DNA of 64,000 bases. It comes from Fidelibacterota bacterium. GTDB taxonomy: Bacteria > Fidelibacterota > Marinisomatia > Marinisomatales > TCS55. The notes under the pieces were generated by a model, which was not told the origin of the DNA, searched no databases, and was given only the letters and a program-made list of their open reading frames with translations. This document shows positions 9,299 to 13,460 of the stretch, in pieces; position 1 is the first letter of the stretch, and the number at the start of each line of letters is the position of its first letter. Position numbers and translations under genes: made by a program. The DNA is taken from NCBI GenBank assembly GCA_018674655.1, contig JABGZQ010000009.1, positions 1 to 64,000 of the forward strand, in the 5' to 3' direction.

Positions 9299-11545
9299 AT
9301 GGCGATGTCATACATGAAAAAAATATCAATTATATATATATTATTCATCGTTTCGATTTGTTCGGCTGAAACGATTGGTAGAGTCATGAAAGCCAATGGA
9401 GAAGTTCTTATTAAACCTATCGGGAGCGGAACTTATTCTGTCAGTGTGAAACCAGGCCAGGCCGTATCCAATGGAGATGCGATTCGCGTGGGGGAAGCGA
9501 GTTTTGCAGTTGTCATATTCCTCGACGATAAATCGGTTGTTAAAATTCGGGAAAATACGGATTTTCAATTTGTAGAAACATCAAATACAAGAAGCCTAAT
9601 CATAGAGCAAGGGACCACGCTACATAACGTAAACAGTAAGGATAGAAAAAAAGCTTATCGCGTAGAAACACCTGTATCTGTTGCATCTGTGAAAGGAACA
9701 CAATTTTCAGCGTTTCATGATGCGGTTGCTGGTATAGATAAATTTGTGGGAAAAACGGGAAACTTTGACGTATTTAATACGATTAGTGGCATGACCGTTA
9801 ATGTTGGTGCTGGACAAAAAGCTGTTTCCAATGCACTGGGTCAACTCATACCGGCGCCGGCTGAGCCTGGAGATTATCCTGAAGATCCAGACGGGGAATC
9901 GCCTGATGATTCTCAAGAAGAACAAGATGAGCCGGAAGACCAGGATGATCAACAAGAGCAAGATAATGAACCCGAAACTCAAGAAGAACCCCAAACTGAG
10001 GAGCCTTCAACAGAGCAAGAGCCTGAACCAGAACGGTCTTCAGATTCATCAGAACCTCAAGCTGATCAACCTTCAACAGAGCAAGAGCCTGAACCATCGG
10101 CGAAAAAACCTCTTAACTTAGGATTGGGTGTTGGATCTGCTACCATTGATGGGGTTATATATAATCAAGTGGCACTTCGCCCGGAATTATCCTTTGGCAA
10201 ATTAGGTATTGGGCTAGATTTGGTTATGTACATAGACAATGAAGGTGCAATTCGAAAAGACGAATGGGACGAAGCATCGGACTTTATTGATAAATTTTTA
10301 TTCATCCGTTGGGGACAAAAATCAGACCCATTTTGGTTTAAATGGGGATCATTAAATAATGTTACCATTGGTTATGGCGGGCTATTAGCTGGATACTCAA
10401 ATATGATGGAGTTCCCCTCTGTTCGGAAAGTGGGTATAAATACTGGCGTATCCTTCGGAAACTTTGGCACAGAACTCTTCCTGTCGAATATGAAAGATTT
10501 CTCCCGAGGCGGTACCCTCATGGGACTTAGAGGCACATACAAACTATCCGATGCAATACCATTGACATTCGGATTGAACTTTATCATGGATATGAATCAA
10601 TTTTCCGGATTAAAAGATGTGGATGGAGATACCTATCCGGATATGTTTGATGATTTCCCCACAGATAAAGATTACTGGAACGATACAGACGGCGATGGCA
10701 TTGCCGATGTGAATGGTGGAACCAAAGAACCGGAAAATGGATGGGATATTGATGGTGATGGAGACAATATCATCGATTCTGCTGATAGTGATCTCACCTT
10801 AAAACCAACCCCATTTAGTTTAAAGGACAATAAAGCAACAGCTCAAGGGTTTGCTTTTGATCTGGGCTATCCAATTTTGAGAGGGAAATCGCTTAGTTTG
10901 GAAGCCTATATGGAATTCAATAAACTCATCTTTCCTGCCGTAGCTGGGGATGCCTATTATAGCCGTAAAGCAATGGGGGGAACTGGTATTACAGTTCCTG
11001 GCGTTCGAGCAAGCTTATTTAGTTTTTTAAATGTGAGTTTTGAATACCGTATTAAGCAAGGATTCTTTGCGCCGCAATTTTTTGACGGCAGTTATGACCT
11101 CTCTCGTGTTGTTGCTGAATTCAGCGAGGACGGTACAATAATTCGGACTAAGGATCAAGTTGTTCTGGTTGATTCTTCTAATACTTCAGGTATGTACGGT
11201 TCTGCATCTGCGGACTTATTCAACTTGGTCAGCTTCAGTGCCTCATATGCCAGCATGAAGGGTGAAGGCGATGTTGAGTTCAACAGCTTTAATGCTATGT
11301 TCGATATTAATGCAGAAAATATTCCTAAACTTAGTGTGGCTCAAGCATATTACTTACGGAATAACGATAAGAATCCATTTGATTTTAGCAATCCAACTAT
11401 AAATACTATATTTGGGTATAAAGTAGGATATGAAGTGAGCAAAGGTGTCAGTTTAATATGGGATTTCCGCCAATATTATCGTGACACGGGCACAGGATTA
11501 GAACCGGTGAAACAAACCACGATTGAAACAGCTTTCGATTTTTAA
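9299..11545 (+). CDS. FecR-domain protein with acidic linker and outer-membrane beta-barrel-like C terminus
   Basis: 748 residues. A signal peptide starts best at the third Met (9314). Residues ~25-175 are a FecR-like domain (GEVLIKP, VSVKPGQAVSNGDAIRVG, VASVKGTQFSAF). Residues ~180-270 are a low-complexity Glu/Gln/Pro/Asp spacer containing an exact 27-bp repeat. The C-terminal ~470 residues alternate short amphipathic strands and end in ETAFDF, with the terminal Phe typical of barrel proteins. A loop near 440-500 carries D-x-D-G-D calcium-type repeats (thrombospondin type 3-like). FecR domains in this setting often act as extracytoplasmic peptidoglycan- or signal-binding modules; here it is joined to a barrel. 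The stop overlaps the ATG of a 44-residue membrane protein. Confidence 0.75.
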   Translation: MAMSYMKKISIIYILFIVSICSAETIGRVMKANGEVLIKPIGSGTYSVSVKPGQAVSNGDAIRVGEASFAVVIFLDDKSVVKIRENTDFQFVETSNTRSLIIEQGTTLHNVNSKDRKKAYRVETPVSVASVKGTQFSAFHDAVAGIDKFVGKTGNFDVFNTISGMTVNVGAGQKAVSNALGQLIPAPAEPGDYPEDPDGESPDDSQEEQDEPEDQDDQQEQDNEPETQEEPQTEEPSTEQEPEPERSSDSSEPQADQPSTEQEPEPSAKKPLNLGLGVGSATIDGVIYNQVALRPELSFGKLGIGLDLVMYIDNEGAIRKDEWDEASDFIDKFLFIRWGQKSDPFWFKWGSLNNVTIGYGGLLAGYSNMMEFPSVRKVGINTGVSFGNFGTELFLSNMKDFSRGGTLMGLRGTYKLSDAIPLTFGLNFIMDMNQFSGLKDVDGDTYPDMFDDFPTDKDYWNDTDGDGIADVNGGTKEPENGWDIDGDGDNIIDSADSDLTLKPTPFSLKDNKATAQGFAFDLGYPILRGKSLSLEAYMEFNKLIFPAVAGDAYYSRKAMGGTGITVPGVRASLFSFLNVSFEYRIKQGFFAPQFFDGSYDLSRVVAEFSEDGTIIRTKDQVVLVDSSNTSGMYGSASADLFNLVSFSASYASMKGEGDVEFNSFNAMFDINAENIPKLSVAQAYYLRNNDKNPFDFSNPTINTIFGYKVGYEVSKGVSLIWDFRQYYRDTGTGLEPVKQTTIETAFDF
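10004..10096 (+). repeat. Exact 27-bp direct repeat in the FecR protein linker
   Basis: The 27-bp unit at 10004-10030 is repeated without change at 10070-10096, 66 bp apart. It encodes the P-S-T-E-Q-E-P-E-P part of the acidic linker. The spacing is a multiple of three, so gain or loss of a unit keeps the frame. Confidence 0.95.
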
Positions 11546-11679
11546 TGAATGATAACATAAAAACCGTTTACCGATATGATGCTGGAGGACGTGGGTTCCG
11601 AAAGGCAGCCATAATTCTTTTCGGATTGGCCGGTGCATTGGGCGTTTTTGGCGTTTATTGGATTACAACCTGGCTTTAG
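11545..11679 (+). CDS. 44-residue single-pass membrane protein
   Basis: A small ORF whose ATG overlaps the upstream stop as TAATG, so translation is probably coupled. The N-terminal 20 residues are polar and basic (ending GGRGFRK). Residues ~21-43 are one hydrophobic helix rich in Gly/Ala/Leu/Ile, suggesting N-in C-out insertion by the positive-inside rule. It is followed four bases before the next start by a perfect AGGAGG that overlaps its own stop. It has no family that I recognise. It could be an anchor or partner for the upstream FecR protein or the downstream redox protein. Confidence 0.6.
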   Translation: MNDNIKTVYRYDAGGRGFRKAAIILFGLAGALGVFGVYWITTWL

Positions 11680-11687
11680 GAGGCGCA

Positions 11688-11921
11688 ATGCATATTTCGA
11701 TTGAATATTGCAATCAATGAAACTACTTACCCCGGGCGGCCAGTATGGCTTCCGCGTTACTTGAAAAGTATGGCAATCGTATTAAATCATTTGAACTCAT
11801 ACCATCGGGTGGGGGTGTGTACGAAGTGAAAAAAAATGAACACCTAATATTCTCAAAAAAAGCGACAGATCGATTCCCAGAATTGGACGAAATAATTGAA
11901 TCCTTGGAAGCGCCTGTTTAA
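11688..11921 (+). CDS. SelW/Rdx-family thioredoxin-like selenoprotein (UGA = Sec at codon 11)
   Basis: Read through the in-frame TGA at 11718-11720, this is a 77-residue protein with all hallmarks of the Rdx (SelW/SelT/SelH-like) family. It has a first beta strand (ISIEY), a CxxU redox motif (C-N-Q-U), then NYLPRA with the conserved R-A, a central FELIPSGGGVYEV strand, and the closing IFSKK-ATDRFPE-DEI block. The family's second redox position is Cys or Sec, exactly where the TGA lies. AGGAGG ends four bases before the ATG. A hairpin at 11736-11755 sits where a bacterial SECIS would be. The 3' end overlaps the next gene by 26 bp. No selA, selB, selC or selD is visible in this window. A nonsense mutation is the alternative, but the reading frame downstream is perfectly preserved. 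Redox function is inferred from the family. Confidence 0.8.
11736..11755 (+). promoter_or_regulatory. Candidate bacterial SECIS hairpin
   Basis: GCG pairs with CGC and GCC with GGC, with a three-base 3' bulge (TTC) and the apical loop AGTAT. The loop begins 22 bases after the TGA and has G in its second position, both within the ranges usually given for bacterial SECIS elements. The stem is short and GC-rich in an AT-rich region. This is a hand-drawn structure, not a folded minimum. Confidence 0.5.
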
Positions 11922-12684
11922 ATCGTTACTAATTATTGGGATGATTTTACCTTTATGGGGTCAAAAGGGTGAAATTGTTCAATTAACAAAGCATATAGGA
12001 TTTACACTGGATGCAGAAGAAAATCAATATTACCAAGTGTATCCAGAAATTGCAAATTTTGAGAGTGCTCAGTTTTTTGAAATAAATAATAATCGGATTG
12101 AATCTCGGGTTTCATTCGTGGAGTATACCCGAGTAAAAATTAGTAAACGTGCATACACTCAACGTGAGTTTATCGGTTTGCAAATGCGAATAAAACAATT
12201 GCCAAAAATTACAGAAGAGATTAGAGAATCATTTCGGAAAAACTTGACCTATTTACGGACAAAAGATGTGTTAACAAATATACCAACAGGACAATACGTT
12301 TCTGTGAAACATCAAAATGGGAAATGGGTCAGGGGTACTCTATTATCTTACAAAAAAGAACGATTATTACTCCAAACACCGTTTGCCATTAAATCTGTAC
12401 CGATTACCAAAATGGAGCGGATTAATTACCGAGAGAATATTATCCAACGACCTGAATGGAAATTACATTTTTTTGGTGTGGCGGCACTATTGGGACTTGG
12501 GTTAATGGAATCCTGGAATCGTCAAACAAGTCCCGCCTGGGGTTCCATGTGGCATAACCGATTTTTAGGGGCCATATTCGGATTAATCGCCGGGGCAGAA
12601 GTCTACGATACATCGATGATTCTTATATCAAAAAAATCACAGTTTGGCCTAACCCCAGCTGAATTGGAAAAAATTAACCATTAG
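11896..12684 (+). CDS. Exported/membrane protein of unknown function
   Basis: 262 residues from TTG 11896, overlapping the selenoprotein gene by 26 bp in another frame. The N terminus is a signal sequence (basic KRLFK, then hydrophobic LLIIGMILPLWG). The middle is charged and beta-rich, with a short module GQYVSVKHQNGKWVRG that looks like a small SH3- or Sm-type barrel strand pair. Two hydrophobic segments lie near 195-210 and 222-240. I do not recognise the family. The start is uncertain: no ATG lies between the overlap and the signal sequence, so TTG is the only start that keeps the whole signal. Confidence 0.6.
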   Translation: MNPWKRLFKSLLIIGMILPLWGQKGEIVQLTKHIGFTLDAEENQYYQVYPEIANFESAQFFEINNNRIESRVSFVEYTRVKISKRAYTQREFIGLQMRIKQLPKITEEIRESFRKNLTYLRTKDVLTNIPTGQYVSVKHQNGKWVRGTLLSYKKERLLLQTPFAIKSVPITKMERINYRENIIQRPEWKLHFFGVAALLGLGLMESWNRQTSPAWGSMWHNRFLGAIFGLIAGAEVYDTSMILISKKSQFGLTPAELEKINH

Positions 12685-12699
12685 AACTCTGGAGATAAT

Positions 12700-13074
12700 G
12701 TGACAGAAGAAACGACAGAATTTAAAAAAGAATACTTAAATGAAAAGCTTCAAGCCATTGGAAATAAATTAGGTGATGCCTATGGCCAACCATTCATGGA
12801 AGAATTAATCAATCGCATGGAACGAACCGTATCTCATTTTAATGAAGAAGTGAATGAAATGCTAAAAACGGTTCATAAGCGCACACGTAACCAATATGGA
12901 TTATTAGCATCCATGCGCGGGGAAGACCCGAATGCGGAACCGGTTGAGTTGAGTGAATTTGAAAAGAAATTATCCACAGGCGATGGTTCAAAAAAGGATG
13001 TTCCTGAAAAGGAAGTAACAGAAAAAAAAACCAAAAAGAAATTTTCATTTTTTAAGCGTAAAAAGAAAAAATGA
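12700..13074 (+). CDS. Small helical protein, paralog of the 31.7-kb gene
   Basis: 124 residues starting at GTG 12700 after GGAG. It is predicted almost wholly helical and charged. Residues ~8-95 align with the protein at 31691-32023 through K-x-x-Y-L-x-x-K-L, YGQ, EL-x-x-R-x-E-x-T, FN-x-EV, and the closing LSEFEKKL versus LSEWEKRL. The last ~25 residues are very Lys-rich (KKTKKKFSFFKRKKKK), so nucleic acid, ribosome or inner-membrane surface binding is possible. The next gene's ATG overlaps its stop. The family is unknown to me; having two copies in one window suggests a lineage-specific family with a real role. Confidence 0.65.
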   Translation: MTEETTEFKKEYLNEKLQAIGNKLGDAYGQPFMEELINRMERTVSHFNEEVNEMLKTVHKRTRNQYGLLASMRGEDPNAEPVELSEFEKKLSTGDGSKKDVPEKEVTEKKTKKKFSFFKRKKKK

Positions 13075-13460
13075 AAATGATTCCCGGGGGGAAGTGGGTC
13101 GCCCAATTAATTATAAGTTGCTTAGTGGTCTCGGCAGCCGTTTCCCAAGAATCAAATCAAAAATTCACGGAATTTATATCGCTTACCAAGCGTGTATATT
13201 ATTACACAAAGGTAGAGTTCATTACACCGGAAGGTGAATTTAATGATGCAATTTGCACCTTAGTCATTCCTGAATTAAAAGAAGAAAGCCCTCCTTATGT
13301 GGCTATCTATTACAAAAGAGACAATTCAGATTGGTTTACAGAATCCCTTTATAGAAAACGTGTTCGGTACAGTTTCAAGAATGGTGTCATTAAATTGGAT
13401 CGATCCAACTTTTGGGATTGGTATGAGGTCAATGAAATTAAGGTGGTAATAATTTATTAA
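13071..13460 (+). CDS. Small exported protein of unknown function
   Basis: 129 residues with a signal peptide (basic start, hydrophobic LIISCLVVSAAVS, cleavage after the Ser-Gln). The mature part is beta-rich and aromatic: YYYTKVEFITPEGEFNDA, YVAIYYKRDNSDWF and a Trp/Tyr-rich end. ATGA overlap with the upstream helical gene makes it the last gene of the 9.3-13.5 kb run. No cysteine-based anchor follows the signal, so it is probably periplasmic or secreted. I cannot name a family. Confidence 0.6.
   Translation: MKMIPGGKWVAQLIISCLVVSAAVSQESNQKFTEFISLTKRVYYYTKVEFITPEGEFNDAICTLVIPELKEESPPYVAIYYKRDNSDWFTESLYRKRVRYSFKNGVIKLDRSNFWDWYEVNEIKVVIIY

Follow-up and report, generated by a model that had tools for sequence, protein, structure and literature searches.

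A SelW-like (Rdx) gene of Candidatus Neomarinimicrobiota very probably decoding an in-frame TGA as selenocysteine

The window analysed here, a stretch of DNA of 64,000 nucleotides, contains a short frame that is almost certainly a functional SelW-like (Rdx) selenoprotein gene of Candidatus Neomarinimicrobiota (SAR406), its selenocysteine (Sec) being delivered through SelB and a SECIS hairpin (Table 1). The initial annotation had described a 77-codon frame with a perfect AGGAGG and an in-frame TGA at 11718, and sequence and coordinates were confirmed as claimed; the observation is real and its interpretation right, the gene very probably decoding TGA as Sec. The frame runs from the ATG at 11688 to a TAA ending at 11921, with the TGA as its sole internal stop, and the AGGAGG overlaps the stop of the preceding small ORF. 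The ordinary ORF list of the window shows only a 58-amino-acid fragment starting at 11745, downstream of the TGA, so that standard gene calling would overlook the gene or cut it short, as had been predicted for callers that stop at UGA. When the whole window was scanned for a second TGA-interrupted frame with a redox motif, judged by eye, no convincing candidate was found.

Table 1. Features of the locus and genes for selenocysteine synthesis and insertion in the same genome (window positions unless a contig is given).
Feature	Position	Strand	Description and basis
Rdx/SelW-like selenoprotein gene	11688..11921	+	77 codons plus TAA; family profiles, relatives, structure
Shine-Dalgarno sequence AGGAGG	11678..11683	+	4 nt before ATG; from sequence
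TGA, very probably read as selenocysteine	11718..11720	+	codon 11, motif C-N-Q-U; relatives and 2fa8 alignment
SECIS-type hairpin	11735..11753	+	fold, covariation in relatives, published bSECIS model
FecR-domain outer-membrane/porin-like protein	9299..11545	+	FecR from profile match; porin-like from reading of the sequence
44-aa single-pass membrane microprotein ORF	11545..11679	+	conserved neighbourhood; separate from the selenoprotein
Conserved protein without assigned family, 262 aa	11896..12684	+	as listed, overlaps the end of the selW-like gene
selB	C71:3082-4899		profile match, 361 bits; adjoins selA
selA	C71:4932-6272		profile match, 525 bits; adjoins selB
selD	G000:C101:10525-11451 (L110)		404 bits; own TGA at GSGUACK

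Membership in the Rdx/SelW-like family is indicated by curated profile cut-offs exceeded across the TGA, in Pfam and in two NCBIfam models. The read-through protein matched Pfam Rdx (PF10262) over residues 3-73 (E 2.2e-23, 82.7 bits, cut-off 22.6), a match that spans the TGA; the earlier statement that the frame reads as a complete Rdx-family protein if TGA 11718 stands for Sec (CNQU) holds. The NCBIfam models, NF041051 (SelTWH_Campy; 94.3 bits, cut-off 88) and TIGR02174 (63.4 bits, cut-off 34.2), are both models for SelT/SelW/SelH (seleno)proteins. Solved structures matched by sequence comprised six bacterial SelW-related proteins and human C17orf37/MIEN1. The AlphaFold model of the 77-residue protein (pLDDT 94.1, pTM 0.81) consists at its start of strand E2-8, the CxxU loop (C8-N-Q-U11) and helix H14-31, and thus places CxxU between strand 1 and helix 1, the arrangement sought for a thioredoxin-like fold. 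Foldseek superposed the model on SelW-related crystal structures, 2fa8 among others, with an rmsd of about 0.9 Å and a TM of 0.9. The best solved homologue, Agrobacterium Atu0228 (PDB 2fa8), has the same fold (rmsd 0.9 over 72 columns, 36% identity) but carries Cys at the position aligned with the TGA, where the window protein would have Sec. Bacterial SelW-like proteins (PF10262; NF041051, TIGR02174) share with it their length, the CxxU after the first strand, the fold and the exceeded cut-offs, and the selenoproteins among them also a SECIS-type hairpin inside the coding region; nothing substantial sets the window gene apart from these, although its set of neighbours is particular to Neomarinimicrobiota.

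A frame of this kind could also be a pseudogene in which a Cys codon has degenerated into TGA and production of the protein has ceased, as might be suspected from the one in-frame TGA and from the tRNA-Sec not found in its own assembly. The relatives make this highly improbable. Among 61 genomes of the order (13 from one genus, the window's own included), the Rdx gene was present in 48, giving 49 matches in 14 families, and every one of the 49 contained exactly one TGA and no further stop; in all 30 loci read from the order the motif is CxxU and TGA occupies the same codon, and the protein sequence is conserved on both sides of it. Together with the Rdx match, the single TGA in 49/49 matches places the frame far beyond chance. 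In a collection of 84,980 species, 323 loci matched and the best 80 were examined: more than half belonged to Neomarinimicrobiota, including the closest (84% identity), which assigns the organism of the window to this phylum, and TGA stood at the same position in loci of Desulforamulus, Alkaliphilus-type clostridia, Bacillus-type bacteria, KSB1, Chloroflexi, Actinomycetota and Verrucomicrobiales. The TGA is thus aligned with TGA in relatives and with Cys in 2fa8. The initial annotation had asked whether relatives carry Cys or Sec at codon 11, and had named additional stops or frameshifts in them as the mark of a pseudogene; TGA was found in all loci read, with no Cys form among this sample (not a census) from the best 80 of 323, and neither extra stops nor frameshifts appeared in the 49 matches or the loci read. 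Covariation in the SECIS hairpin of the relatives, described below, likewise speaks against a pseudogene.

Taken by itself, the in-frame TGA would also fit an altered code, in which this lineage would use TGA for some amino acid other than selenocysteine. The 40 long frames of the window, however, end in TGA (11), TAA (17) or TAG (12), so TGA is not generally reassigned; furthermore, TGA is found at the known Sec site in both Rdx and SelD, families unrelated to each other, and the Sec machinery is present, with tRNA-Sec (TCA) in relatives. We regard an altered code as extremely improbable.

In bacterial Sec decoding, a hairpin in the mRNA is bound by SelB, which supplies Sec-tRNA(Sec) at the UGA. 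Behind the UGA of the window gene, nucleotides 11738-11742 can pair with 11746-11750, and 11735-11736 with 11752-11753. The bSECIS model, as quoted in PMC13188914, calls for 4 or more base pairs in the upper stem, G in the first two positions of the loop, a spacing of 16-37 nt and an MFE <= -7.5 kcal/mol, and the window hairpin agrees with all of these points (5 bp, loop GUA closed by A-U, 22 nt from UGA to loop, -10.0 kcal/mol). The evidence for the hairpin comes entirely from the alignment, single-sequence folding of the region being uninformative, with a stability no higher than that of shuffled sequences (z 0.31). A gap-free alignment of 43 distinct Neomarinimicrobiota sequences, anchored at the TGA, shows an NGCC-AGU-NUG-GCN-type hairpin spanning +21 to +33; in 43/43 the loop contains GG or GU and the upper stem at least 4 pairs, while the energy limit of -7.5 kcal/mol is reached by 30 sequences and missed by 13.

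Support for the stem comes from two synonymous third codon positions that covary. These positions, columns 21 and 33, are the wobble bases of two codons specifying Ala in nearly all sequences, and they are paired in 42 of the 43, compared with 20.7 expected from shuffling; none of 5000 shuffles reached 42. Six standard kinds of pair occur (CG, AT, GC, GT, TA, TG), column 21 is paired with other third positions in only 12-27 of 43 sequences, and the mutual information of columns 21/33 is 1.22 bits, against 0.59 for the next best column pair. Per sequence, 6.26 of the 7 stem pairs were observed versus 4.19 +/- 0.14 under synonymous codon resampling. In all 30 sequences whose loop codon specifies Ser, that codon is AGT, whereas further along the genes AGT accounts for only 10 of 156 Ser codons. 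Shuffling ignores kinship, yet the number of pair types makes it unlikely that shared inheritance would be the sole cause of the 21/33 pairing.

The initial annotation had proposed to search the genome for selA, selB, selD and selC. In the assembly to which the window belongs (2.13 Mb, 111 contigs, 90.8% complete), selA, selB and selD are all present, the first two side by side. Matches over cut-off were obtained for selA in 28/31, selB in 50/61 and selD in 54/61 genomes of the order. In the window's genome, selD too encodes a selenoprotein (GSGUACK), and its TGA is followed by a strong hairpin, GGUCC-AGA-GGACC. In another genome of the order, the selD match (G058:C50:17724-18650, L048) falls within an open frame of 748 codons that contains no TGA and may perhaps encode an NADH dehydrogenase-SelD fusion with CxxC such as has been reported from ocean metagenomes (PMC2398784).

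As regards selC, the outcome was divided: tRNA-Sec was not found in the window's own assembly, which lacks the conserved selC neighbourhood as well, but it was found in most relatives. For tRNA-Sec, 35 of 41 genomes of the order gave a match over the cut-off, one of them marginal (48.1 bits), and the 30 relatives' loci tested were all tRNA-Sec with anticodon TCA. In the window's genome, the sub-cut-off matches examined were ordinary tRNA-Ser, Leu, Cys and Gly, and no tRNA adjoins selA-selB or selD. Where this locus was read in genus members, selC is flanked by the genes of a SPOR/TPR and a Lys-rich protein; the SPOR/TPR gene and selC are both present in the same 10 of 13 genus genomes and both absent from G000 (the window's genome), G004 and G011. 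The DNA of a near relative's selC locus gave no useful match in the window's genome, and a 29% match to the membrane neighbour at that locus is a paralogue at best. If selC had been lost in this species, the gene would be intact and its protein unmakeable here though relatives make it, a reading that fits the missing tRNA-Sec at 90.8% completeness. Against it stand the intact selA, selB and selD and the SPOR/TPR neighbour missing in exactly the same three genomes, as an assembly gap would give, and we consider such a loss very improbable. The same pattern would arise if three lineages had lost the entire locus by deletion, which is less likely. Because the neighbour is lacking precisely where selC is, an assembly gap is the likely reason for the missing selC, and the organism itself probably possesses the gene.

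From these data we infer that Sec is inserted at UGA 11718. SelA would make Sec-tRNA(Sec) using selenophosphate from SelD, and from its site on the SECIS hairpin, some 20 nt past the UGA, SelB would deliver it to the ribosome, yielding a 77-residue thioredoxin-like protein whose predicted CxxU redox centre lies where strand 1 ends. Such a product is most likely a small thiol/selenol oxidoreductase, the CxxU centre suggesting one that would form a selenenylsulphide.

Within 9299-13460, the window carries in order the FecR/porin-like gene, the microprotein, the SelW-like gene, and genes for 262-aa, 124-aa and, as is often the case, 129-aa proteins. This order is common to most Neomarinimicrobiota loci, and the neighbour set was not seen at loci from other phyla. 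Farther downstream in the window lie SRP RNA, dnaX, ybaB and recR. The downstream proteins of the conserved set had no Pfam match over cut-off. The microprotein (MNDNIKTVYRYDAGGRGFRKAAIILFGLAGALGVFGVYWITTWL), located between the FecR/porin-like gene and the selenoprotein gene, begins within the stop of the former (TAATG); its pattern KTVYRYDxGGxGFRKAA, followed by a hydrophobic stretch and FWIxSW, recurs at the same place in 17 further distinct Neomarinimicrobiota loci, and it had no significant match in Pfam or NCBIfam. It is less familiar than the SelW-like selenoprotein itself. The SelW-like protein could conceivably be part of an envelope gene set, exchanging electrons with the microprotein or other neighbours in Neomarinimicrobiota, which we regard as rather doubtful; if true, it would provide a bacterial SelW with a partner and a defined setting. 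For the role of bacterial SelW, the neighbours in the operon are a concrete starting point.

The window gene belongs to an already known selenoprotein family and is ordinary in kind; recognizing it corrects the gene calling on sound grounds but brings no surprise. In the Global Ocean Sampling data, the SelW-like family is reported to rank first among selenoproteins in both spread and abundance, with 427 Sec sequences versus 56 Cys homologues (PMC2398784), and SelW-like proteins are again reported, at 11.3%, in PMC9402790. These are CxxU SelW-like proteins like the one described here; the ocean survey, however, consisted of metagenomic reads, whereas here the host phylum, the machinery and the neighbourhood are known (PMC2398784). 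In a different host, Campylobacter jejuni, the similarly unannotated SelW of about 80 amino acids with UGA (CJnc60) was shown by Ribo-seq and proteomics to be translated to full length past the UGA (PMC11955535), and SelW genes of Epsilonproteobacteria wholly missed by annotation were noted in 2015 (PMC4607533). A literature search of partial coverage found no dedicated account of selenoproteins or selenocysteine in Marinimicrobia. In Table 1 of a 2016 survey, three SAR406 single cells are listed with an 'orphan' SelD and no other selenium trait (PMC5029168). Since selA, selB, Sec-type selD and tRNA-Sec are nearly universal in the relatives searched in this order, that listing suggests incomplete single-cell genomes, though those cells may lie outside the order. 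With gene callers losing or truncating the gene in this uncultured marine phylum, the use of selenium is under-recorded there.
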